Shown here: positions 1 through 24,690 of the stretch, piece by piece
How positions within the stretch are numbered: the first letter of the stretch is position 1
Layout: the number at the start of each line of letters is the position of its first letter
Assembly (NCBI RefSeq): GCF_026965535.1
Contig: NZ_CP114039.1
Coordinates: 7,750,001-7,814,000, forward strand
DNA length: 64,000 bases
Reading direction: 5' to 3'
DNA from: Corallococcus sp. NCRR
GTDB lineage: Bacteria > Myxococcota > Myxococcia > Myxococcales > Myxococcaceae
The notes under the pieces: generated by a model
The model's input: the letters and a program-made list of their open reading frames with translations, nothing else
Database searches by the model: none
What the model was told of the DNA's origin: nothing
Program-made: the position numbers and the translations under genes

Positions 1-342
1 GACTCCATCCCCGCCATCTTCGCGGTGACGCGCGACCCGTTCATCGTCTTCACGTCGAACATCTTCGCCATCCTCGGCCTGCGCTCGCTCTTCTTCCTGA
101 TGGCCGGCGCGATGGAGAAGTTCACCTACCTGAAGGTCGGCCTGTCCGGCGTGCTCGTCTTCGTGGGCGCGAAGATGGCGCTGGTGGACGTGGTGCACCT
201 GTCCCCGGCCATCTCCCTGGGCGTCATCGCGCTGGTGCTGGGCGCCAGCATCGTGGCCTCGCTGGTGAAGGCGAAGAACACGCCGCCGCACGCGCCCGGC
301 AGAGAGAACGCGCCGGACGCCCCGGCGCCCGCGAAGAGCTGA
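1..342 (+). CDS. TerC family integral membrane protein, C-terminal part
   Basis: The reading frame is open from base 1, so the gene begins upstream of the window and only its last 113 residues are present. The segment opens with [10 protein letters not shown] followed by a phenylalanine-rich hydrophobic stretch, the conserved signature of TerC/Alx membrane proteins, which are implicated in metal ion (manganese, tellurite) handling. Two or three further hydrophobic helices follow (about residues 48-65 and 68-85 of the fragment), then a polar Pro/Ala-rich cytoplasmic tail. A GTG at 25 is an internal valine, not a start. A strong terminator lies 57 bases downstream, so the gene does not run into the lanthipeptide locus. 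Family assignment is secure; substrate unknown. Confidence 0.85.
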
Positions 343-398
343 CGCTCTCGCGTCACTAAAATTTTCCGGCTGTGGGTCCCATGGGGTGTGGGGCTCCG

Positions 399-442
399 GG
401 CCCGGGCCTCCGAAGTGCATGGGGGCTCGGGCCTCTTTTTTT
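399..442 (+). terminator. Rho-independent terminator after the TerC gene
   Basis: A 13-pair stem (399-411 with 421-433, two G-U pairs) encloses a 9-base loop and is followed by a run of seven T (436-442). It separates the TerC gene from the downstream lanthipeptide locus. Confidence 0.85.
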
Positions 443-529
443 CCCTCTCAAGAACGTCAGCGATTCCAATGCCATAGGCCTTGCCACACCGCGTCTATCG
501 GCTTTTAAAGGCTTTCCTGCCCTGGAGGC

Positions 530-610
530 TTGACCAAATCTAGCTTGTCTATACAGTTGTCTCGCTTCACGAGAAAGCAGCCATTCACCCCCGTACCCAA
601 GGAGATAGCC
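530..610 (+). promoter_or_regulatory. Leader region of the lanthipeptide precursor gene: ribosome binding site and weak promoter candidate
   Basis: AAGGAG at 599-604 sits six bases before the ATG at 611 and is one of the best Shine-Dalgarno sites in the window; it fixes the start of the precursor. A TTGACC box (530-535) and TATACA box (550-555) are present, but only 14 bases apart, shorter than the usual 17, so the promoter assignment is tentative. Confidence 0.4.
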
Positions 611-751
611 ATGAAGAAGGTTCTCGAGCTTCAGAAGCTGCCCGTTGAGGAGACCACCGCGGTCAACGCCAGCGGCAGCAGCGTGGCGTGTATCATCATT
701 GGCGACGTTGGCGCTGGCGACAGCGGCTGCAGCGTTGGCTGTGGCGCCTAG
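611..751 (+). CDS. Class III lanthipeptide precursor peptide
   Basis: A 46-residue peptide starting at ATG 611 behind a strong AAGGAG site. The N-terminal half is a leader with the LELQKL segment, matching the LxLQ recognition motif of class III lanthipeptide leaders. The C-terminal half is rich in Ser, Cys and Gly. Ser21-Ser24-Cys27 and Ser38-Ser41-Cys44 each fit the SxxSxxC spacing from which labionin rings form; Ser23 and Cys40 are extra. The next genes encode a lanthionine lyase-kinase and a cyclase-like protein, which supports the assignment. No dedicated exporter or leader protease is visible in the flanks, so these would be encoded elsewhere. The ring pattern is inference. Confidence 0.85.
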   Translation: MKKVLELQKLPVEETTAVNASGSSVACIIIGDVGAGDSGCSVGCGA

Positions 752-790
752 CCGTCTCTGATCACCCAGGTTCGGAAGGCACTCACTTCC

Positions 791-809
791 ATCCGCTTCG
801 CAAGCGGAT
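791..809 (+). promoter_or_regulatory. Hairpin between precursor and synthetase genes
   Basis: A perfect 8-pair stem (ATCCGCTT / AAGCGGAT) with a three-base loop and no T-run. It lies between the precursor stop and the synthetase start. A likely role, inferred, is to protect the precursor transcript or reduce synthetase expression relative to the peptide. Confidence 0.55.
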
Positions 810-899
810 GCCTTGGGTGGTGGCCACCAGTTCCCGCCTGTCCGCGCAGGAGCTGGTGGCCGAAGTTGCTTTGGGACTTCGTCACGCGGTGCCAGCGAT

Positions 900-2399
900 G
901 TGGGGGACTTCTTGGAAGAGTTTTCGTTCTACACCCTGACCCACCCGGACTACTTCGAGACCCTGAGCCGCTTCCCGGTCTCCCAGACATACCCAGGACT
1001 GCTCAAGTCGCTCCTGCCCCCGGACTGGTCGATCTCCTCATTCGACGTCTTCCTCAAGGCAAGCTTTGAGCGCGCGGTCCTGACGCCGCAAGGCTTCAAG
1101 ATCCACGTCTCTTCTTCGGTGGCGGATGCGGAAACCGTCCTGCGGCGGGTCGTGCCGGAGTGCGTGCGCGCGGGAGTGACGTTCAAGATCGTCGCGGACC
1201 CCTTCCTGCTCCGCTTCCTGAACTCGAAGCGCTACTCGCGGGGCGGCTCGGGCAAGTTCGTGACCATCTACCCGCCTGACGAGCCCACGTTCCGCACGCT
1301 CATCGAAGCGATCCACCAGGCCACGAAGGACCTCAAGGGCCCCTACGTCCTGTCCGACAAACGCTACCGGGACAGCAAGCTGGTCTTCTACCGGTACGGT
1401 GGCTTCCAGCGGATGTACGAACAGCGCACCGATGGCATGAAGACCCTGATGATCCGCAAGCCAGACAACACGTGGGTGGCGGATGACAGGCTTCCCTATT
1501 TCAACCTCCCCTCGTGGGTCCAGGATCCCTTCCCCGAAGAGGAAGCGGGGCCGGGGAGTGACAGCGAACTCCTGAATGGCCGCTATGATGTTCAGGGAGC
1601 GTTTACCTTCACTAACACCGGTGGGGTGTACAAGGCGCTCGACCGCACCACCGGCCAGACCGTCGTCCTCAAGGAAGCGCGCCCCTATACCGAGGCCTGG
1701 ATGGGCGGGGACCGCACGGTCGACGCCATCGTCGCGCTCCGGCAGGAGCACGACATCCTGCAACGCCTTGGGGGCCTGCCCTGTGTCCCGCAGGTCGTCG
1801 AGCTCTTCCAGGAGTGGGAGCACACCTTCCTGGTCACGACGTTCTTCGAGGGCGTGTCCCTGGCCTCGCTGCGGGCGAGCGACGACTTCATTGTCATGAC
1901 GAACATGGATGATCCCGAGCGGATCACCCGGTTCTGCACGGAGTGGCGGGAGCTGGCGTTGCGCCTGCTCGACGCGGTGGAGTCCATCCACGCGCGCGGG
2001 GTGCTGGTGGGGGACATCTCGCCAGGCAATGTCCTGGCGAACCGGGAAACGAAAGAGATTGGCCTGATTGACTTCGAAGGGGCCCTGGTCCGCGGAGGGG
2101 ATTCGCCCTTCGAAGGCCAGTGGTTCAACCCCGGCTTCAGGAAGCCGGAGCGCCGCACGTCGCGCAAGCTGGAGCCCTTCGACGACTTCTATGCCTGCGG
2201 GATGCTGCTCTACAACCTCGTCTGCCCCATCCAGAACCTGCTCGAGCTCGACAAGGGTCAGCCGGCTTTTCGCATCCTCGACCACTTCATCGAGGCAGGG
2301 CTGCCGGAGCAGATCCGGACCCTCATCCGGGAACTGCTGGAAGGCCGTCCCCAGGCGGCCCGCCAGGTGGCGGAAGCCTGGAATCCCCAGACGCGCTAG
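900..2399 (+). CDS. Class III lanthipeptide synthetase, lyase-kinase part (LanKC without cyclase domain)
   Basis: The 499-residue product has the N-terminal two domains of LanKC enzymes. Residues about 1-210 form the phosphothreonine-lyase domain, including FKIHVSSS and RGGSGKF. Residues about 220-480 form a Ser/Thr kinase-like domain with a nucleotide-binding lysine in VVLKEARP (K258), the catalytic loop GDISPGN (D372) and the metal-binding IDFEG (D391, DFE in place of DFG). Such enzymes phosphorylate and eliminate Ser/Thr of the precursor. The protein ends in a TAG where a fused LanKC would continue into the cyclase; the cyclase-like gene follows in the same frame. GTG at 900 is chosen because homology begins there; a TTG at 813 would add 29 unconserved residues. 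Neither start has a good ribosome site. Confidence 0.85.
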   Translation: MGDFLEEFSFYTLTHPDYFETLSRFPVSQTYPGLLKSLLPPDWSISSFDVFLKASFERAVLTPQGFKIHVSSSVADAETVLRRVVPECVRAGVTFKIVADPFLLRFLNSKRYSRGGSGKFVTIYPPDEPTFRTLIEAIHQATKDLKGPYVLSDKRYRDSKLVFYRYGGFQRMYEQRTDGMKTLMIRKPDNTWVADDRLPYFNLPSWVQDPFPEEEAGPGSDSELLNGRYDVQGAFTFTNTGGVYKALDRTTGQTVVLKEARPYTEAWMGGDRTVDAIVALRQEHDILQRLGGLPCVPQVVELFQEWEHTFLVTTFFEGVSLASLRASDDFIVMTNMDDPERITRFCTEWRELALRLLDAVESIHARGVLVGDISPGNVLANRETKEIGLIDFEGALVRGGDSPFEGQWFNPGFRKPERRTSRKLEPFDDFYACGMLLYNLVCPIQNLLELDKGQPAFRILDHFIEAGLPEQIRTLIRELLEGRPQAARQVAEAWNPQTR

Positions 2400-2450
2400 C
2401 GCCTCCCTTCCCCGCCCCCTTGAATGCCAGCTCTCGCTGAAGGCCGCGCC

Positions 2451-3680
2451 ATGCCGACCATGAACACAGCTCTCCTTGCGGCACCGCCGGAAACCGAATC
2501 ATTCCGCGACGCGATCCAGGGCCTCGCGCGGCACATGCTGTCCTCGATGGACACCCACCGCGCGGACCGGCTCTTTCCCGCTGACGCCATGGTGTTCCAG
2601 ACCAACCCGCTCAACGTGGCGTACGGCGCCTGTGGGTCCGCCCTGTTTCTGCACGACGCGCTGGGCGAGCTCCCCCAGCCGGTGCGCGAGTGGCTCCTGG
2701 CCCAGCCCATCGACCTGGCCGCGTACCCGCCGGGGCTCTACTCCGGGCTCGCGGGCGTGGCCTGGAGCTTCGCCGAGATGGGGCTCCTGGACCGAGGGCT
2801 GGAGGTCTTCGACCTGGTGCCCAGATCCTCTCTGGCATTCCGGGCGCCGGACATCTTCGAGGGAGTTGCGGGCTGGGGACTGACCTCGCTGGCCTTCCAC
2901 CTGCGGACCCGGGACGAGAAGTTCCTGACGCTGGCCTGCCGGGCGGGTGAGCACCTGCTGAAGACCGCCGAGCGCGCGGACGCGGGGCTCTGGTGGCGCA
3001 CCAACAACGAGCCCGCGGCCCGGCTCGGGTTCGCGCTCGGAGCCAGCGGCATGGCCTTCTTCCTGCTCAACCTCTGGCGTGCCACGGGCGAAGCCCGCTA
3101 CCTGGAGGGCGCCAGGGGGGCCATGGACTTCGACATCGCCCAGGGACAGGAGCGGGGCGACACCCTGCTCTGGGGTGTCACGGAGGGGGCCCTGGGGCAT
3201 CGCCCCTACTGGCTGCGGGGAGGCGCGGGCGTGGCTTCGGCGCTCATCCGCTTCTTCCAGGTCTTGAAGGAGGAGCGCTACCTGCACCTGGCCCACAGGG
3301 CGGCGCGGGGATGCGAGGCCTTCTTCTCCGCGGCCCCGCACCTCTTCGAGGGGCTCGCGTCCATGGGCGAATCGCTCCTGGACATGTTCCAGGTGACCGG
3401 TGAGCGCCGCTACCTGGAGCTGGCGCGGCAGAAGGCACGCCAGACGCTGCTGTACCGCATCGAGCGTCCCGAGGGGCTCGCGTTCCCGGGGCGCTACCTC
3501 GTGCGAATCAGCCACGACTACGGCGTGGGCGGCGCGGGCATCGGGTCGTTCCTCCATCGGCTGGAGACGCTCCAGCCCCGGAGGTTCCACGACCTCGCGT
3601 TTGACGCGCCTCCGCCCCGCCAGGCCCCGGACCTGGCTCGAGCCCACCGGCGCTTCAGTGGGCCCGCGACAGCTCCATGA
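2451..3680 (+). CDS. LanC-like cyclase-domain protein of the class III lanthipeptide locus
   Basis: The 409-residue protein has the alpha/alpha-barrel repeats of LanC cyclases, with Gly-rich turns such as GLYSGLAGVAWS, GFALGASGMAFF, RGGAGVAS and FEGLASMGESLLD. At the places where zinc-dependent LanC enzymes carry Cys and Cys-His ligands it has LRGGAG and LFEGLAS, so the metal site is absent. The cyclase domains of class III enzymes, unlike those of class IV, also lack zinc ligands. It probably assists (methyl)lanthionine or labionin ring formation. It is separated from the lyase-kinase by two in-frame stops (TAG 2397, TGA 2421) and re-starts at ATG 2451 (or 2424). Its 3' end overlaps the convergent gene by 26 bases. 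Confidence 0.8.
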   Translation: MPTMNTALLAAPPETESFRDAIQGLARHMLSSMDTHRADRLFPADAMVFQTNPLNVAYGACGSALFLHDALGELPQPVREWLLAQPIDLAAYPPGLYSGLAGVAWSFAEMGLLDRGLEVFDLVPRSSLAFRAPDIFEGVAGWGLTSLAFHLRTRDEKFLTLACRAGEHLLKTAERADAGLWWRTNNEPAARLGFALGASGMAFFLLNLWRATGEARYLEGARGAMDFDIAQGQERGDTLLWGVTEGALGHRPYWLRGGAGVASALIRFFQVLKEERYLHLAHRAARGCEAFFSAAPHLFEGLASMGESLLDMFQVTGERRYLELARQKARQTLLYRIERPEGLAFPGRYLVRISHDYGVGGAGIGSFLHRLETLQPRRFHDLAFDAPPPRQAPDLARAHRRFSGPATAP

Positions 3681-3993
3681 ACTCCAGCCAGGAGCGGATG
3701 ACCTCCTCGAACTCCTCCAGGGGCAGGTCCTGGGAGCGTCCGGGGATGGCCACCTCGCTGTGGATGGAGGCCCGGGCCCGGTTGAGCTCCAGGCTCCAGG
3801 TCTCCCCGGTGACGTCCCAGCGCTCGCGCCGTCCCTGCCGCAGTGACGCCAGCACGTTCAGCATCCCCTGCGCCCGGTTCGCATCCGGCCGCAGCTCCTG
3901 GGCGAGGTAGTCCGCCAGCACGTCGTCGGGCGGCAGGCCACTCACGACCGCCCGTCCCTGCTGATCCCACGTGAATCGCAATGTCCTGGGCAC
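3655..3993 (-). CDS. YacL/UPF0231-like small protein
   Basis: A 112-residue soluble protein starting at GTG 3993 (MPRTLRFTWD). Its layout resembles the UPF0231/YacL family: a short N-terminal beta region with a G-x-A-V-V-S turn, a helix, a second beta region (WDVTGETWSLELN) and a C-terminal acidic LPLEEFEEVIRSW helix. The family has no established function. It converges on and slightly overlaps the LanC-like gene, so it is not part of the lanthipeptide operon. The family call is from memory and only moderately supported; the gene itself looks real. Confidence 0.55.
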   Translation of the reverse strand: MPRTLRFTWDQQGRAVVSGLPPDDVLADYLAQELRPDANRAQGMLNVLASLRQGRRERWDVTGETWSLELNRARASIHSEVAIPGRSQDLPLEEFEEVIRSWLEFMELSRAH

Positions 3994-4134
3994 GGCCGTG
4001 AAGGTCGCACAGTCCGTGGATCGCCGGCCACGCCCCGCCCCCGCCGATTGCGCCGGAACCCGACACTGCGGCCCGGCCGCGTGTGGCAGCCAACGGGCGC
4101 CTCCGCCCCGCGAACAACGGGCTGTTGGGAGCTG

Positions 4135-4175
4135 GAAAAGCGAAAGGCCGTGAGCCCCTGGGGACTCACGGCCTT
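4135..4175 (-). terminator. Terminator downstream of tRNA-Val
   Basis: An 11-pair perfect stem (4144-4154 with 4165-4175) with a 10-base loop. On the minus strand it is followed by TTTCGCTTTT. It lies eight bases past the 3' end of the tRNA gene. Confidence 0.8.
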
Positions 4176-4183
4176 GCTTTGAG

Positions 4184-4255
4184 TGGGCGCGGCAGGTTTC
4201 GAACCTGCGACCCCTGCCGTGTGAAGGCAGTGCTCTACCGCTGAGCTACGCGCCC
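4184..4255 (-). tRNA. tRNA-Val (anticodon CAC)
   Basis: The minus strand folds into a full cloverleaf: a 7-pair acceptor stem GGGCGCG/CGCGCCC with discriminator A, a D-arm with GCTCAGCGGTAGAGC, an anticodon stem CTGCC/GGCAG around a TTCACAC loop (anticodon CAC, reading GTG valine codons), and a T-arm with GGTTCGAAACC. The 3' CCA is not encoded. A terminator follows immediately. Confidence 0.95.
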
Positions 4256-4341
4256 TGCTGTCTGTGCCGCCCGCCGCGCGACCGCTGCGCAACGAACGCG
4301 GCGGTAAATGCCATTCGCCGCCGTGGGTGTCAACGCCTTTT

Positions 4342-17164: not shown

Positions 17165-18688
17165 ATGTCCCGCCCCCGCCTCCTCATCGATGGTGACACC
17201 CTGAAGCTGGAGGAGATCCTCCAGGTCTCCCGCCACGAAGTCACGGTGGAGCTCGCCCCCGAAGCCGCGAAGCGGGTGCAGGCCTCGCGTGCGCTGGTGG
17301 ACCGGGTCGCCGCCGGGGACACGCCGTCCTACGGAATCAACACGGGCTTCGGCACGCTGGCGGAGGTGCGGATCGACCGGAAGGACCTGCGGGACCTGCA
17401 GCGAAACCTCATCCTGTCGCACGCCTGTGGCGTGGGAAATCCCCTGCCCCTGCCGGAAGCGCGCGTGCTCCTGCTGCTGAGGGCCAACGTGTTGGCGAAG
17501 GGCTTCAGCGGCATCCGGATGGAGACGCTGGGGCTTGCCATCGACATGTTGAACAAGGACGTGGTGCCGGTGGTCCCCGAGCGGGGAAGCGTGGGCGCGT
17601 CCGGAGACCTGGCCCCGCTGGCGCACCTGGCGCTGGTGCTGATTGGCGAGGGTGAGGCGTTCTTCGAAGGCGTGCGGATGCCGTCGAAGCAGGCGCTGGA
17701 GAAGGCGGGCCTGAAGCCGGTGGTGCTGGAGGCGAAGGAAGGCCTGACGCTGATCAACGGCACGCAGGCGATGTGCGCGGTGGGAACGCTGACGCAGCTG
17801 CGCGCGGAGCTGCTGGCGGACGTGGCGGACATCGCGGGAGCGATGACGGTGGAGGGCCTGTTGGGAAGCCACAAGCCGTTCCTGCCGGAGATCCACGCGG
17901 TGCGCCCGCACCAGGGCCAGAAGGCGGTGGCGGAGCACCTGCGGAGGATCCTGAAGGGCAGCGAACTGGTGGAGACGCACGTCAACTGCAGCAAGGTGCA
18001 GGACCCGTACAGCCTGCGGTGCATCCCGCAGGTGCACGGCTCGGCGCGAGAGGGATTGGCGTTCGCACGTCGAATCCTGGAGGTGGAGGTGAACAGCGGA
18101 ACGGACAACCCGCTGGTGTTCCCGGACACGGGAAACATCATCTCCGGAGGCAACTTCCACGGTCAGCCCATCTCCCTGGCCATGGACGTGGTGGCCATGG
18201 CCCTGACGCAGCTGTCGAGCATCAGCGAGCGCCGGGTGGAGCAGATGGTGAACCCGAGCCTGTCGGGTCTGCCCGCGTTCCTGGCGAAGAACAGTGGGTT
18301 GAACAGCGGGTTCATGATCGCCCAGGTGACCGCGGCGGCCCTGGTGGCCGAGTCGCGAATCCTGAGCCACCCGGCGTCAGTGGACTCCATCCCCTCCTCC
18401 GCAGGCCGCGAGGACCACGTGTCCATGGGCATGACGGCGGCGCTGAAGGGCCGTCAGGTGTCGGAGTTCGCGCGTTCGTGTCTGGCGATTGAGCTGCTGG
18501 TCGCGGCGCAGGCGCTGGACTTCCGTCAGCCGGTGAAGCCCGGCAAGGGCGTGCTCGCGGCGTACGAACTGATCCGCGGCAAGGTTCCGCACATGGACCG
18601 GGACCGCGAGCTGCATCACGACATCACTGCGGTCACCGCGCTGGTGGAGTCCGGGGCGATCCGTGAGGCGGTGCGGTCGGCAACATAG
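17165..18688 (+). CDS. hutH: Histidine ammonia-lyase
   Basis: A 507-residue member of the aromatic amino acid lyase family, which converts L-histidine to urocanate and ammonia. The autocatalytic MIO prosthetic group would form from A145-S146-G147 in [12 protein letters not shown]. Other family landmarks are [34 protein letters not shown] and [14 protein letters not shown]. Length and motifs fit HutH. The rest of the hut pathway is not adjacent: the upstream neighbour is divergent lysC and the downstream sequence abruptly becomes AT-rich foreign-looking DNA. GGAG lies upstream of ATG 17165. Confidence 0.95.
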
Positions 18689-18736
18689 CAACAAATACAA
18701 CTCAATCCACCAAACACACTTCCCCACCCAAAGCGC

Positions 18737-19606
18737 TTGAGAAAATTTAAAAAGCTAATAATCAAATTCAAGATCGCTTTTTTCGACACCACAGATCCCA
18801 AGCGAATCAGGCGCAGATTCAACAGATACAAACAAATAGAAGAAGAACTCAAAGCAACAGCCGCCAAACTGGAGTCCCAAGAAATAACAGACGCACTAGA
18901 GTCCAACAAACAACTACTGGAAAACTACGACGAAGCCCTCGAGACAATCAGAAACCTAGAGACACAACGACAGCAGAATCCACAAAACCTAACGCCAGAT
19001 GAAAAACTAAAACTCTCATCAGCCCGACAAAGGATAAACAACCTAACCCCACTCGCATCAAGAGCAAGATCCGCCAATGAGGACATCGAACAACTAGCAC
19101 TAAGAAATGCCAACTTAATACGCCGAATTCAAAAAACAAGAAGGAGGCACATTCGACTACTCGTAATATCAAACACGTACCTAACGATATACACAACGAT
19201 CGCCGTTGGATTTATCTGGCGCTCCGGCGCAGTTTCTAAGTTTCTCACGTTCGTTGTTTTGGGTGGCGCTCTCGCCAAAACAATCGGAGTAACTAGCGTT
19301 CTTGCGCTAGGTAGCGCACTCTATTGGCTTAGATCTAGATGGAGGAGAGTCTATGCGGCCACTGAGATTAGCGTAGCGCTAGTATCTGCATGGGTGGCCT
19401 TCAAGGATACAACGCTATTGTCTGACATCGAAAAGACCATTGGGCTTGCGGGCGCGACATACCTAGTGGTTCGCGCGCTCGATAATTTTGATCAAGGACA
19501 ACAGGCAGCTGAAAAGGCCCAGGCCAAAACTAGAAATCGGCGAACATCAAGACCACCGACCTCCAGCCAGTCACAACTCCCACAACCAGAATCAAAATCA
19601 ACTTAA
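18737..19606 (+). CDS. Coiled-coil membrane protein of foreign composition, unknown function
   Basis: The 289-residue product starts at TTG 18737 and contains no internal methionine. Residues 1-125 are highly charged and helical (YKQIEEELKATAAKLESQ and following), a probable coiled coil. Residues about 135-250 carry three or four hydrophobic segments (LLVISNTYLTIYTTIAVGF; FVVLGGALAKTIGVTSVLAL; IGLAGATYLVVRAL). The tail is Gln/Ser/Pro-rich. Codons favour A/T third positions, unlike every neighbour. The arrangement recalls small membrane effectors with a cytoplasmic coiled coil, but I do not recognise a family. Its location beside a toxin-immunity-like gene and an IS suggests an accessory or conflict role (inference). 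Confidence 0.7.
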   Translation: MRKFKKLIIKFKIAFFDTTDPKRIRRRFNRYKQIEEELKATAAKLESQEITDALESNKQLLENYDEALETIRNLETQRQQNPQNLTPDEKLKLSSARQRINNLTPLASRARSANEDIEQLALRNANLIRRIQKTRRRHIRLLVISNTYLTIYTTIAVGFIWRSGAVSKFLTFVVLGGALAKTIGVTSVLALGSALYWLRSRWRRVYAATEISVALVSAWVAFKDTTLLSDIEKTIGLAGATYLVVRALDNFDQGQQAAEKAQAKTRNRRTSRPPTSSQSQLPQPESKST

Positions 19607-19800
19607 GACAACAACCTTCCCATCAAGGCCAACCATCCGCACCCCGCAAACAATAAATGGCCAATAAAAACAGACCAAGCAATCCCAACCCCCCCCCAAT
19701 ACATCCACGACAACCCAGGCCGCCTGAATCGCACTACATAGTTAGACTTGTCCGAGAGTGCGGTCAGAACCTTGCCGCTGGAGTGTCCAGTGACGCTCAT
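19603..19800 (-). CDS. Possible small membrane protein
   Basis: A 65-residue ORF on the minus strand with a polar N-terminus (MSVTGHSSGKVLTALSDKSN), then a membrane-like stretch with GGVGIAWSVFIGHLLFAGCG. It begins with ATG 19800 and ends overlapping the stop of the coiled-coil gene. No clear ribosome site is seen, and the size allows chance occurrence. It sits in the 254-base gap between two plus-strand genes, where nothing else is visible. Confidence 0.3.
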   Translation of the reverse strand: MSVTGHSSGKVLTALSDKSNYVVRFRRPGLSWMYWGGVGIAWSVFIGHLLFAGCGWLALMGRLLS

Positions 19801-19860
19801 CAGAGCGCATAGAAACTAGCGGACCCCTACCTCCACGTTGTCATCATGGATTGGTGCTGA

Positions 19861-20622
19861 ATGCCCTCCAACCCCATCGAACTGGCAGTGATTGCTTATT
19901 CACTTGGTTCCCAGGGCAACGACGGTCGCGCACTCACCATCATTCACGGACTGGAGCGAGCACTACCCGGACTGCGCCTGAAGTGGACCTCTTCCGAAAC
20001 AGAGGAACTCATCCCGCTGTCCAACCGCGACGCGTGGGTTGTCGCCAACGGCCAGAGCGGCAACCTCCCCTTCCTGTGCAATGACGATGACAACAACCTC
20101 GTCACCATTTCAGGCTGGGAGAACCCGAACGGACTTGCTTCGGAGGGTCCACCGCACTTCGAGGTCCACGCTGATTTCCGGATGGAGGCTTTCAGCCCCA
20201 TCGACGCAGCGAATGCGCTGGAAGCCATCGCAGTCGGAGCTAGAGCAATCTGGGGTCATGCCACGCCATTGAAGGCGGCGGTCGAAATCGCGGAGCAGAC
20301 GGCCCCGACAATGGCCGGCCCCCCTTCCCCACCGAAAGGACTCCCAGCCCTCAAATGCTCTTGGGACATCTCCTCGCCTGAAATTCCACACCGCCTGGGG
20401 TGGCTGAACTATTGGTCGGCGGAGTCTGCGAGAGCGATCGGATTTCCTGATCCTTCGCGCGACGCGGACCTTCTCTCGCGGACACGACGCACAGCGAGGG
20501 ATGGCTGGCTCGTGAGCCTCACGGACGCGCCGCTTGATCTCGACAATCCCGCGCACCTGGACGCACTCCTGAGAGCCTACTCCTACAGCTGCAGTTTGAA
20601 CCGAGCCCTTCGGGCCCGATAG
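19861..20622 (+). pseudogene. DUF5953/Imm52-like gene, 3' end replaced by an IS insertion
   Basis: The 253-residue frame matches, from memory, the myxobacterial DUF5953 family, often linked with polymorphic-toxin immunity: DGRALTIIHGLERALPGLRL, VTISGWENPNG, ARAIWGHATP, APTMAGPPSPPKGLPALK and PHRLGWLNYWSAESARAIGF. After LRAY (codon ending at 20580) the frame enters the IS and adds 13 foreign residues before stopping. Beyond the IS, 22067-22096 encodes ERFPKIGGR and a stop, so removal of the element plus one CTAC copy restores a 249-residue protein ending RAYERFPKIGGR. The product differs only at its C-terminus and might retain function. ATG 19861 is the start. Confidence 0.8.
20577..20580 (+). 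repeat. Target site duplication CTAC, left copy
   Basis: CTAC immediately precedes the left inverted repeat and recurs directly after the right end of the element (22063-22066). Four-base duplications fit IS701-type transposition. Confidence 0.85.
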
Positions 20623-22062
20623 TGGCACTGCATGGCCACGGCTTGGTGGTGGCGTCGCCAGCGACTCCACGCGAGGACATGCGCAAGCGGAGCCGCCACA
20701 CGCCGCAGAAGCGCTACCAGAAGCACTCGCACTTCCTGGACGGAGTAGCGGACGAAGGCCGTTAGTGAAGGCCGCGCCGGGCGAGAAACGCGCGCATGGG
20801 GTTTCTGCGCCTCGGCAGGCCGAGTGCTTTTGGGGGCAGGCCCTCCTGGAGTTGCTGATTGGCCACGGCACGCGCGGCGGCGAGAAAGACGTGGGCCACC
20901 AGGCACAGCGTCATATGCCGGTGCCAGGCCGTCCAGGTGCGCACCTCATAGTCGGCGAGGCCCACCTCGTTCTTGGCGGATTCGAAGTCCTCCTCCACGG
21001 CCCACCGGCTGCCCGCGGCGCGCACCATCGACTCCAGTGAGGCATTGCGCCGGGCATGGGCGACGTAGAAGGCCACCTTGCCGTCCGCGAGGCCTCTGCG
21101 AAAGAGCAGCCACCGCGACAGGCCCAGGTGCCGGTTGAGCCGCATGCGCGCCCAATCATAGAGGCGAGGGCCCTTGGTGCCCGCGCCTGCGGACAGACGT
21201 GTCCAGTCCTCCGGAGGGACCTCCTCCACCATGTCTCCAGGCTTCACCTGGTAGAAGCCGCGCCAGACGTGCGTATTGGAGGCCACCGCCAGCACGTAGG
21301 GCTGGTGCAAGTCTTCGAGGAAGCGGCGCAGGGTGCTGTCGCGTCCATAGACTTCGTCCCCCACCACCCACGCCGGCTTCAGTCCCGCGCCCAGCGCCCG
21401 CTGCAGCATGCCTTGCGCGAGGGCCGGTTTGGATTCGAAGCCCACTTCGTCCGGAATCCCTCCCGCTTTGCGGCGGGCCGCATCCTCCGTCCAGGGCTCC
21501 GGCAGGTACAGTTCCCGGTCCACCAGCGCATGCCCGCGAGGCGTCACGTACGAGAGGAAGACGCCCACTTGCGCGTTCTCCACCTTGCCCGCGGTGCCCG
21601 TGTACTGGCGCGCCACGCCCACGGACTTCTCTCCTTTCTTCAGGAAGCCCGTCTCGTCCATCGCCAGGATGCCGCCTTCGCCCAACGCCCTGCGCGCGTA
21701 CTCCAGCACGTCGTCGCGTACTGCATCCGCGTCCCACTTCGCTCGCAGCAGCAGGTGCTGGAAGGCATAGGGCGCTTGATGCCCCGCATCCTCCGAAAGG
21801 CCCCACACATTCTTGCGCTGTGCCCGTCCCAGGAGGGCCTTCACGTACTCGACCGCAGTGGCGTGCGCCTCGCGCCTGCGGAAGTGCGGCTGCAGCCAGG
21901 CGCCTATCTCCTCCAGCTCCGTCACGAGACGGCCAACCAGCCGGACTTCCGGTGCCTGCGCTTCTGTGGCTGATGGCTGCTGCATGGGAGGTCTCGTTCC
22001 TCCCCCTCCTGTTTCTTCAACAGGAGGAAGCCTGCGGAGTCTTCCGAACTACAGCTGTAGGA
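20581..22062 (-). mobile_element. IS701-like insertion sequence, complete
   Basis: A 1,482-base element. Its ends are imperfect inverted repeats: TCCTACAGCTGCAGTTTGAA at the left and, read inward from 22062, TCCTACAGCTGTAGTTCGGA at the right. The first 11 bases are identical. CTAC duplications flank it. It carries one intact transposase gene on the minus strand. The 180 bases between the left end and the transposase stop hold no convincing gene. The element is inserted ten codons before the end of the DUF5953-type gene (nine sense codons plus the stop). Confidence 0.9.
20762..21985 (-). CDS. IS701-family transposase (DDE endonuclease)
   Basis: A 407-residue transposase with an RNase H-like DDE core: the first Asp in GILAMDETGFLKKG, the second in AWVVGDEVYGRD, and the Glu near WAVEEDFESAKNEVG. 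Typical IS701 landmarks are SVGVARQYTGTAGKVENAQV and DRELYLPEPWTED. The frame is intact from ATG 21985 to TAA, with no frameshift, so the element may still be active. Composition is GC-rich like the host, unlike the AT-rich island beside it, suggesting a later arrival. Confidence 0.93.
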   Translation of the reverse strand: MQQPSATEAQAPEVRLVGRLVTELEEIGAWLQPHFRRREAHATAVEYVKALLGRAQRKNVWGLSEDAGHQAPYAFQHLLLRAKWDADAVRDDVLEYARRALGEGGILAMDETGFLKKGEKSVGVARQYTGTAGKVENAQVGVFLSYVTPRGHALVDRELYLPEPWTEDAARRKAGGIPDEVGFESKPALAQGMLQRALGAGLKPAWVVGDEVYGRDSTLRRFLEDLHQPYVLAVASNTHVWRGFYQVKPGDMVEEVPPEDWTRLSAGAGTKGPRLYDWARMRLNRHLGLSRWLLFRRGLADGKVAFYVAHARRNASLESMVRAAGSRWAVEEDFESAKNEVGLADYEVRTWTAWHRHMTLCLVAHVFLAAARAVANQQLQEGLPPKALGLPRRRNPMRAFLARRGLH

Positions 22063-22204: not shown

Positions 22205-23302
22205 TTGCCCGTAAACCACTTCAAGGTGACCTGCCTGGGGCTGACTGTCAGCCTCTGCTTCGCACTTCCTGCGCATGCGGAGGATCAGCTCAAGGTGCAG
22301 GTTCAGCAGTTCGCCGCGGACACGGACTTCAACGGTGTCGCCCTGGTGGGCAAGGGCTCGCATGTCGAGTACGTCGAGACGTTCGGAGTCATGGACGCCG
22401 ATTCGGCGAAGCGGCTCAAGCGGAACAGCCGCTTCTTCGTGGGGTCGGTGAGCAAGTGGCTGTCGTCCATCGTGGTCCTCCGGCTGGTGGATGACGGGAA
22501 ACTGTCGCTCGACGAGCCCATTCTCACGTACCTCCCGGAGTACCGCGCGGACACGGGGAAGCAGCTCACCCTGCGCCACCTGATCAGCCATGGCAGCGGC
22601 CTGCCCAATGGGCTCATGGACGCGGCCAAGAAGGACCCCAGCATCGAAAAGGAAACGCGCCCCACCGCCGAAGCCGTGACCCGGTACGCGAGCGGTGACC
22701 TGGTGTTCACGCCGGGCACCCGGTTTGACTACAACATCACCAACTGGATCCTCGTGCAGGCGATCCTCGAGCGCGTTTCCGGAGGCTCCTACTCAGAGCT
22801 CGCTCAGCGCCTTGTGTTCAAGCCCTTGCGCATGACCGACAGCGGCATCGCGGCGGGCGAAGCCGGGAACGTTCCCAACCTCGCGTTGGGTTACCGCTCG
22901 CTGAAGCCCAAGGCGGAGCGTCGGGTCTACACGCTCCCGAACTACCTCGTGACAGCTGGCGGCTTCTACAGCACCGCGGATGACATGCTCCGGCTGAATC
23001 ACGGTGTGCTCTCGGGGAAGCTCCTGTCGCCCGAGTCCAGGAAGGCGCTTCTGACGGTCGAGCGTCCCGAGTCCTCGTACGCCTTGGGTGGACGCGTCCG
23101 GACCTTCAAGAACAAGAGACTGGTGACCCAGAACGCCGCGACGAACGATGGAACGTGCGGCGCCTATCGCACCATCTCCTGGCGCATCATCGAAGATGGC
23201 CGCACCGTCATCTTCCTGAGCAACCTGCGGCCGGATGATTCGAAGCTCTTCGCCTTCACGGAATCGCTCCTGGAGATTCCGAGCGCCCAACAGGAAAACT
23301 GA
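22205..23302 (+). CDS. Serine beta-lactamase-like hydrolase (class C/esterase type), copy 1
   Basis: A 365-residue exported protein with a signal peptide ending at ALPAHA (about residue 25). The catalytic SxxK is S81-V-S-K84. LRHLISHGSGLP is the usual post-active-site segment. The second motif, YxN in most members, reads Y176-N-I in FDYNITNW, so the general-base region is altered. Such proteins are D-aminopeptidases, esterases or peptidoglycan-active enzymes more often than true antibiotic-resistance enzymes. The start is TTG 22205 with GAGG upstream. It is followed two bases later by a second, divergent family member, so the pair is probably co-expressed. Confidence 0.85.
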   Translation: MPVNHFKVTCLGLTVSLCFALPAHAEDQLKVQVQQFAADTDFNGVALVGKGSHVEYVETFGVMDADSAKRLKRNSRFFVGSVSKWLSSIVVLRLVDDGKLSLDEPILTYLPEYRADTGKQLTLRHLISHGSGLPNGLMDAAKKDPSIEKETRPTAEAVTRYASGDLVFTPGTRFDYNITNWILVQAILERVSGGSYSELAQRLVFKPLRMTDSGIAAGEAGNVPNLALGYRSLKPKAERRVYTLPNYLVTAGGFYSTADDMLRLNHGVLSGKLLSPESRKALLTVERPESSYALGGRVRTFKNKRLVTQNAATNDGTCGAYRTISWRIIEDGRTVIFLSNLRPDDSKLFAFTESLLEIPSAQQEN

Positions 23303-23304
23303 CC

Positions 23305-24690
23305 ATGTCCCTTCACAGATGGGGCCTGCTGTTTCTGCTCGGGTGGTCGCAGTGGGCCTGGGCCGGCTCGGATAAGGCGGATGCGTTCCTGCGCGCGGAG
23401 ATGGCTCGCAATCACATCCCTGGCGCCGCTATTGCCGTAATCCGTGACGGCAAGGTCATCAAGCTCGCTGCCTATGGCACGGCGAACCTAGAGTGGAAGG
23501 CACCCGCGAGTACCCGCACGGCGTTCCAGATTGCCTCCGGCACCAAGATGTTCACGGCGGTCCTGCTGATGGACCTCGTGGGCCAGGGGAAGCTCCGGCT
23601 GGAGGACCGCGTCTGTCAGTACATCTCCGAGTGTCCTCCGGCCTGGAGGGACATCACCCTGCGCCACCTCGCCAGTCACACGTCTGGCCTGCGCCCTGGC
23701 CCCGTGGACGCGGACAACGCCAGCGTCACGGCCGCGATCGATGCGGCGAAGAGGGCTCCGCTTGCGTCAGCTCCTGGCGAGAAGAACGCCTATGGGTCGG
23801 ACGGCTTCGTGCTCCTCACCCATGTCCTGGAGAAGGCCGGCGGCGCCCCCTACGAGCAGCTTCTGCGAGATCGCATCTTCACGCCCCTGGGCATGACGAA
23901 CAGCGGCTTCGACCATGCCACCCTCACCGAGCAGCACGTCGTCCTGACCAGCGACGTCGTCACGGAACGCTCGGCGACCTACCAGTGGAAGACGGATCAC
24001 CAGCAGCAATACTGGTTCATTTACCCGTACTACACGCTGTCGGCCGGCGGCCTGTTCTCCTCCGTGACGGACATGTCCCGGTTCGTGTCCGCGCTGATGA
24101 GCGACAAGCTTCTGAACGCGGACCTGCGCTCCGCCATGTGGACGCCGCCCAAGCTCAACGACGGCAAGGCCAGCGGCTTCGCGGTGGGCTGGACCGTGGG
24201 TCAGTACAGGGGACGTCGTGAGGTGGCCCACAGCGGCGGTCCGGCGCTCTCCGACACGGTCTACTACCCGGACGACAAGCTGGCCGTGGTGGTGCTGACG
24301 AACCAGCGGAAGCTGGTCCCAGCCCTTGCCCACGGCGTGGCGAACTTCTACCTGCCGCCTCCGCCCTTCCTGCACGAGCCCGGCATTGCCGACTCCACTC
24401 CCGATCGAACAGAGACCATCAAGGCCCTCGTGCCCGCACTGAGCCAGGGCAAGGCGGAAGCCCGCCACTTCACCGGGACCGCGAAAGACGAGCTCGCGGA
24501 CATGAACGATTGGTTCCGCATGAAGCTCGGCGGAATGCCTCCGCTGAGCCGGTGGGTCCTCGTGGAGGACTCCACGGACCACCTGTCACGGACCTACCGC
24601 GCGGTTTACGGCAAGGACGTGACCCAGCGATGGAAGGTCACGTTCGATGCAACAGGCCTGATCGCGGAACTGGACGTCACGGACGAGTAA
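23305..24690 (+). CDS. Serine beta-lactamase-like hydrolase, copy 2
   Basis: A 461-residue exported protein with signal peptide MSLHRWGLLFLLGWSQWAWA. The active site is S78-G-T-K81 with Y163-G-S as second motif and a C-terminal VAHSGGPALSDTVYY (HxG) segment, so all three family motifs are present. After about residue 350 a 110-residue extension (TIKALVPALSQGKAEARHFT onward) resembles the domain appended to some eukaryotic-like and bacterial esterase members. It starts two bases after the previous gene. Natural substrate unknown; peptides, esters or cell-wall fragments are plausible. Confidence 0.87.
   Translation: MSLHRWGLLFLLGWSQWAWAGSDKADAFLRAEMARNHIPGAAIAVIRDGKVIKLAAYGTANLEWKAPASTRTAFQIASGTKMFTAVLLMDLVGQGKLRLEDRVCQYISECPPAWRDITLRHLASHTSGLRPGPVDADNASVTAAIDAAKRAPLASAPGEKNAYGSDGFVLLTHVLEKAGGAPYEQLLRDRIFTPLGMTNSGFDHATLTEQHVVLTSDVVTERSATYQWKTDHQQQYWFIYPYYTLSAGGLFSSVTDMSRFVSALMSDKLLNADLRSAMWTPPKLNDGKASGFAVGWTVGQYRGRREVAHSGGPALSDTVYYPDDKLAVVVLTNQRKLVPALAHGVANFYLPPPPFLHEPGIADSTPDRTETIKALVPALSQGKAEARHFTGTAKDELADMNDWFRMKLGGMPPLSRWVLVEDSTDHLSRTYRAVYGKDVTQRWKVTFDATGLIAELDVTDE

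Follow-up and report, generated by a model that had tools for sequence, protein, structure and literature searches.

A myxobacterial class III lanthipeptide cassette with a conserved and probably two-protein LanKC

Architecture of the locus

The window analysed here is a stretch of 64,000 nucleotides (nt) from the single-contig 9.79-Mb genome of Corallococcus sp. NCRR (NZ_CP114039.1, positions 7,750,001 to 7,814,000), and all positions below are counted from its first letter. Near its left end lies a short cassette with a precursor gene and two further genes, which appear to encode a class III lanthipeptide and its synthetase LanKC, the latter divided between a lyase-kinase and a separate cyclase. 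The features of the locus are as follows.

441 to 3653 (approximate ends), strand not given: inserted cassette with a promoter-like site, precursor, lyase-kinase and cyclase; the site is empty in all 15 other genomes of the genus that were examined
398 to 434, + strand: hairpin resembling a terminator, with a T run, located at the 3' end of the terC-family gene upstream, seen in the sequence; the insertion sits at the T run
530 to 557, + strand: sigma-70-like promoter candidate, TTGACC-16-TACAGT, a pattern match only (1 in 300-4300; 0.2 expected)
599 to 604, + strand: Shine-Dalgarno-like AAGGAG before the precursor, seen in the sequence
611 to 751, + strand: class III lanthipeptide precursor of 46 amino acids (aa), MKKVLELQKLPVEETTAVNASGSSVACIIIGDVGAGDSGCSVGCGA; open reading frame (ORF), below-cut-off NCBIfam matches, similar precursors in 8 of 8 clade loci
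752 to 911, + strand: strongly structured spacer between precursor and lyase-kinase, with arms for example at 822-837 and 846-861; folding z-score
912 to 2399, + strand: lyase-kinase of 495 aa, from a TTG to a TAG, with the LanKC lyase and kinase domains but no cyclase domain; ORF, domain matches and alignments
2451 to 3680, + strand: stand-alone class III LanC-like cyclase lacking zinc ligands, 409 aa (418 aa from the alternative ATG 2424), with its stop within host DNA

A preliminary description of the locus, made from the sequence alone, had placed it at 611-3680 and had named a precursor ORF, a lyase-kinase ORF, an in-frame TGA and a cyclase ORF. All are present as claimed: the lyase-kinase ORF stops at TAG 2397-2399, the TGA follows at 2421-2423, and the cyclase ORF ends with the TGA at 3680. 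The genes thus stand, while the extent needs revision to about 441-3653, the last cyclase codons lying in host DNA. For the lyase-kinase the preferred start is the TTG at 912 (TTG GAA GAG), as it aligns with the ATG that the relatives have in the same place (MEE...). The cyclase has three candidate starts, ATG 2424, 2451 and 2460. It probably begins at 2451 rather than 2424, since 2451 is preceded by GAAGG and aligns with the ATG of the nearest relative, whereas 2424 lacks a Shine-Dalgarno-like sequence. With this start, the TGA at 2421-2423 would play no special role.

Division of the LanKC domains and their active sites

The two proteins share out the domains of LanKC at a precise position. 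In Pfam, the lyase-kinase matches RamC_N (2.6e-59, covering 7-185 of 191 positions and thus nearly full-length) and Pkinase (1.3e-16), and the second protein matches LANC_like (4.6e-22). The NCBIfam LanKC model NF038151, which has 833 positions, is divided without overlap into 3-469 on the lyase-kinase (437.6 bits) and 478-833 on the cyclase (257 bits), placing the break at the kinase-cyclase domain boundary. Each score alone falls below the curated cut-off of 575 bits.

The active sites can be compared with those of the Bacillus enzyme ThurKC, for which residue roles are taken from PMC10604976 and the numbering of that paper equals the chain index + 3; what is credited here to papers cited by PMC number comes from extracts of them. 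The OspF/RamC-type lyase retains all eight lyase residues named there (Lys65, His67, Lys94, Lys108, Lys117, Asp152, Arg163 and Arg191), invariant in five split proteins. Identical kinase residues include Lys257, Glu279, Asp364 and Asp382-Phe383-Glu384. Altogether 14 of the 15 lyase and kinase residues checked agree with ThurKC, and all 14 are invariant in the five split proteins. The cyclase scores 257 bits with the class III model and 201.7 with the class IV model NF038150, and its motif sites YWLRGGAG and HLFEGL, which we assign as the zinc-ligand sites, contain no Cys ligand. Its structural model, of mediocre confidence (predicted local distance difference test, pLDDT, only 63), is closest in Foldseek to CuvL (8cav, 8car), then to ThurKC (8sam) and LanCL1.

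Distribution of split and fused loci

Relatives were sought in 79 related genomes; the LanKC model, run on 147 genomes of the class, and a cyclase profile, run on 96 of the family, gave a concordant result. Among the 79, lyase-kinase ORFs of 516-545 codons occur in the window genome (G000), in G015, in G010 and twice in G013; G015, the nearest relative, and G010 belong to the same genus as the window. The next five matches there are ORFs of 905-946 codons with 34-37% identity and nearly full cover. In the Myxococcaceae genomes 23 loci were read, and the 22 with both halves comprise seven split and 15 fused ones. The split loci (G000, G015, G010, G013a, G013b, G121b and G104) span six genomes and three genera and break at the same domain boundary. 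The cyclase profile gives 21 matches, namely the same seven stand-alone cyclases, each adjoined by a lyase-kinase, and 14 fused proteins. A close relative, locus L074 of genome G121, is fused and is 67% and 74% identical to the two window halves; fusion is also seen in 14 loci of the family that are more distant. Over 195 genomes of the phylum, 14 exceed the family cut-off and all are of this family, the best match outside it reaching 95 bits among the matches listed. A contig scan also matched the locus in Corallococcus llansteffanensis CA051B and Corallococcus sp. AS-1-6.

Some genomes hold more than one member of the group. G121 carries both a split (L073) and a fused (L074) member of one LanKC clade, and G013 carries two distinct split cassettes (L032 and L033) with different precursors. 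Other lyase-kinases stand without a cyclase. In G033, locus L043 (8509-10125) encodes a RamC_N and Pkinase protein that lacks a cyclase domain and is 538 aa long when counted from its ATG; its open frame is taken as 555 codons (one listing gave 836), and no cyclase match below E 0.1 occurs in 18 kb around it. Two plasmid searches matched 94 records, 60 of them listed, and 39 records, and three of these were examined further. A Salipiger plasmid (L085, 3860-5431) encodes a RamC_N and Pkinase protein with no cyclase annotated in the 9.3-kb stretch, an unannotated Streptomyces locus from these searches (L087) is fused at 897 codons, and a Lactococcus plasmid protein has a short LANC_like match only.

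Evolution of the split

In a tree of 22 rows, the seven split loci and the fused L074 form a clade with support 100/100, and L074 is nested inside it. The trees left out L043, which has no cyclase, and their rooting assumes that the outer fused loci are the outgroup. Constraining the seven split rows to a single clade is rejected by the approximately unbiased (AU) test for the whole alignment of 22 rows (p 0.014), and likewise for each half over 16 of the 22 rows (p 0.016 for the lyase-kinase and 0.034 for the cyclase). As monophyly of the split loci is rejected, there must have been either at least two fissions, or one fission followed by a re-fusion. The inner branching is not firm: the node uniting L074 with five split rows has support 88/98, and a grouping of L032, L073 and L074 is not rejected (p 0.246 and 0.157, 16 of 22 rows). 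These three loci have a common type of precursor.

Junctions and selection

The junctions between the halves vary from locus to locus. In five split loci the stop and the start are separated by 51, 56, 38, 40 and 30 nt, and in the other two (G013b and G121b) the cyclase ATG chosen here lies inside the lyase-kinase ORF, giving an overlap of 22 nt. The halves are in one frame in only two of the seven loci (the window and G104) and in different frames in the other five, which makes the shared frame in the window incidental. All seven split loci have a Shine-Dalgarno-like tetramer 4-14 nt ahead of the cyclase ATG; of 166 other ATGs in the sequence around them, 20 have one. The window start, ATG 2451, was picked partly on this upstream motif and is not independent within the count of seven; for the other six, the cyclase ATG is taken as the first in frame close to where homology begins.

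Both halves show signs of purifying selection, as expected of functioning genes and not of decay. By the Nei-Gojobori method, the ratio of nonsynonymous to synonymous substitution rates (dN/dS) between the window and G015 is 0.234 for the lyase-kinase and 0.289 for the cyclase; between G013a and G010 it is 0.151 and 0.175, respectively.

Precursor and structured spacer

The predicted precursor of the window has the leader motif VLELQKL and the core segments SGSSVAC and SGCSVGC. Its NCBIfam matches lie below the cut-offs, at 24.9 of 30 bits for lanthi_III_b and 21.1 of 22 for lanthi_III_a. Such genes are found 200-301 nt upstream of the lyase-kinase in 8 of 8 clade loci, and their (V/I)LxLQxL leader is preceded by MKK or VKKM. 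Six were located by the leader pattern; those of L073 and L074 emerged only from a listing of small ORFs, that of L074 with a GTG start. Five loci have SxSSVxC and SGCSVGC in the core; in the other three the core has S(T/A)SSxxC and a shorter tail, in which a second Cys is present, so that paired Ser and Cys are kept in all eight. The class III core motif is given as SxxSx(2-5)C, with non-Cys spacers in the predictor (PMC11251773). SGSSVAC fits this motif, and SGCSVGC, with its extra internal Cys, falls outside the strict form.

The spacer between precursor and lyase-kinase is another recurrent element. In the window it folds with a minimum free energy of -79.7 and a z-score of -3.56 (-4.49 in a second run), and stable hairpins are present in seven of eight clade loci (the window, L035, L033, L034, L032, L073 and L075). 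The z-scores range from -1.84 to -5.32 in the six other split loci, L075 being the weakest; the fused L074 is the exception at -0.24. One could guess that these hairpins keep the precursor transcript in excess.

Insertion and genomic context

The cassette is an insertion relative to the rest of the genus. In all 15 other genomes of the genus that were examined the flanks meet: homology begins near -1000 (in one genome at -750), runs to near 441 (in one only to 286) and then resumes at 3647-3655, within 35 bp. The left end of the 3.2-kb insert coincides with the T run of the terC-family terminator, and its right end lies in the cyclase tail, the last cyclase codons and the stop being host DNA. 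It carries only the precursor, lyase-kinase and cyclase genes. By blastn, homology between the window and G015 is confined to 520-3613, and no neighbouring gene is common to the eight clade loci, except for the orthologous pair G013a-G010; this comparison used ORFs of at least 80 aa chosen by a rule on guanine plus cytosine (G+C) content, in stretches of 16-19 kb. Given these homology bounds and the lack of shared neighbours, the travelling unit consists of the promoter region, the precursor, the lyase-kinase and the cyclase.

A transposon origin of the insertion was considered and rejected. No inverted repeat joins 441 and 3653, the joins of several loci share only some 2 bp, and neither a target duplication nor mobile-element ends are seen at the insertion. 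The host genome has three further LanC-like matches, in ORFs of 1114, 1027 and 493 codons. Rfam at gathering thresholds finds tRNA only. Elsewhere in the window, G+C drops to 0.55 at 18001-20000, against a background near 0.70; this stretch adjoins a DUF5953 gene (19861-20622) and a DDE transposase gene (20762-21985). Two adjacent genes of the beta-lactamase family PF00144 lie at 22205-24690.

Interpretation and alternatives

The gene anatomy, the intact active-site residues, the conserved split, the co-inheritance of the three genes and the purifying selection are observed; the feature is real and conserved, and very probably functional. At a probability of roughly 0.8, we read the locus as a minimal three-gene class III cassette in which LanKC is naturally divided into a lyase-kinase and a zinc-free cyclase as a protein of its own, which would act in trans. 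The enzyme activity, the in-trans complex, the ring type and the recourse to an outside protease and exporter are predicted, as is the chemistry as a whole. The leader motif VLELQKL would bind the lyase-kinase, the kinase would phosphorylate core Ser residues and the lyase would eliminate the phosphate to leave dehydroalanine. The cyclase would then dock in trans, aid dehydration and add Cys to dehydroalanine, closing lanthionine or labionin rings within SGSSVAC and SGCSVGC. Genes elsewhere in the genome would take care of leader removal and export.

A laboratory precedent exists for such a division. When ThurKC was cut at the kinase-cyclase boundary, its lyase-kinase (Met1-Gln486) was inactive alone and became active once the cyclase piece was added (PMC10604976). 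Since the natural proteins end and begin at that same boundary, a two-component LanKC working in trans is the simplest reading of the locus.

Several observations nevertheless weigh against it. The two ThurKC pieces did not form a stable complex (PMC10604976), the need for a cyclase in dehydration is not general, and the pieces of the hybrid enzyme CcaM, one for dehydration and one a class III cyclase, failed in trans (both PMC10676384). The cassette contains no protease or transporter. ThurKC Arg275 aligns with Ala in the lyase-kinase, and the cyclase has Phe-Glu where the class III structure 9wop has Phe-Asp, a site that we tentatively equate with Phe770-Asp771 of ThurKC. Finally, the AlphaFold model of the lyase-kinase has a pLDDT of 37, is unusable and was not used.

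The preliminary description had considered that in-frame stops either split a functional LanKC or inactivated one recently, and it favoured function. Recent inactivation or a sequencing error, with a fused LanKC broken by stops, would account for the two in-frame stops between same-frame halves and for the fused state of the close relative L074. Yet seven loci have the same split with varied junctions, five of them out of frame, both halves are under purifying selection and every cyclase start has a Shine-Dalgarno-like motif. The conserved split speaks strongly against damage of this kind, which we regard as highly improbable, and the earlier preference for function is supported. Conservation of the two-gene arrangement in relatives, a test set beforehand, is seen in seven loci from six genomes and three genera with varied junctions. 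The opposite outcome, stops in this strain alone beside uninterrupted relatives, is not what is seen, though L074 is uninterrupted and the 14 distant loci are fused. In-frame stops are not supported as the splitting mechanism, with five of seven split loci in different frames and two of them overlapping. The same variety bears on recoding, in which stop read-through or frameshifting would yield some fused LanKC and the separate cyclase start would be secondary. The common frame in the window and G104 and the 22-nt overlaps in G013b and G121b would suit it, but no single type of recoding fits in-frame stops at two loci and two different out-of-frame relations at the other five, and each cyclase has its own ATG and Shine-Dalgarno-like motif. 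We give recoding as little credence as inactivation.

The role of the cyclase homologue allows more latitude. It may be a scaffold or activator only, with the lyase-kinase making a dehydrated linear peptide. Indeed, mutations in the ThurKC cyclase impair dehydration (PMC10604976), and the carnazolamide enzyme has a class III cyclase domain and a product without lanthionine rings (PMC10676384). The paired Ser and Cys of the cores, on the other hand, fit thioether rings, and we consider a pure scaffold unlikely, if less so than damage or recoding.

Relation to known lanthipeptide synthetases

The closest known system is LanKC itself, as in ThurKC and CuvL (8cav, 8car), which has the same three domains in the same order, a zinc-free cyclase, an LQ-type leader and a labionin-type core motif. 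LanKCs are described as one chain in the extracts available, whereas here there are two proteins from two genes; because the three domains are not in one polypeptide, the system is filed as a two-chain variant working like LanKC. Artificially divided ThurKC (Met1-Gln486 and Thr487-Ile872) is cut at the same boundary and is active only with both parts (PMC10604976), but it is a laboratory construct of a Bacillus enzyme, while the present division is natural and inherited.

Other classes also distribute the work among separate proteins. Class V does so with LanK, LanY and LanX, including a separate aminoglycoside-phosphotransferase-like kinase and a HopA1-like lyase (PMC9486802); here RamC_N and Pkinase are fused and only the LanC-like cyclase is separate, no HopA1 family match is found, and the aminoglycoside phosphotransferase family gives only a sub-threshold overlap on the kinase. 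In class I, LanB and LanC are separate as dehydratase and cyclase (PMC7268733), but the dehydratase is glutamyl-tRNA-dependent and LanC binds zinc, in contrast to the phospho-dehydration domains and missing zinc ligands of the present proteins. The zinc-binding cyclase of class IV (LanL) is not matched either, given the lack of a Cys ligand at the motif sites and the lower NF038150 score. The streptococcal class VI combines a kinase with truncated cyclase and lyase domains (PMC10676316), whereas here the lyase match and the LanKC-model match of the separate cyclase are near full-length.

We found no report of a naturally split LanKC in the open-access literature, most subscription papers being outside the scope of this search. 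The boletupeptin cluster of Melittangium boletus is a myxobacterial lanthipeptide system cited under class III (PMC12328550); if it were also two-chain, the split LanKC would join something already known.

Significance

The split cassette adds a two-protein form to class III lanthipeptide biosynthesis, its chemistry being predicted. It seems fairly likely that it represents a two-component LanKC subclass with a dissociable cyclase acting in trans, which arose by fission at least twice, or was undone once, in a small myxobacterial clade and which one-protein mining rules would leave unclassified. One survey required the kinase and LanC-like domains of classes III and IV in one protein and left 3052 sequences unclassified (PMC7268733), which suggests that surveys of this kind would leave split loci unclassified.

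The ThurKC paper names the transit of the substrate among the three LanKC active sites as an open question and, in its extracts, leaves unexplained why mixed pieces act without a stable complex (PMC10604976). A natural two-chain enzyme would allow mixing, exchange and titration of its halves with no need for engineering, and direct comparisons could draw on the seven split members and the one fused member of the clade.

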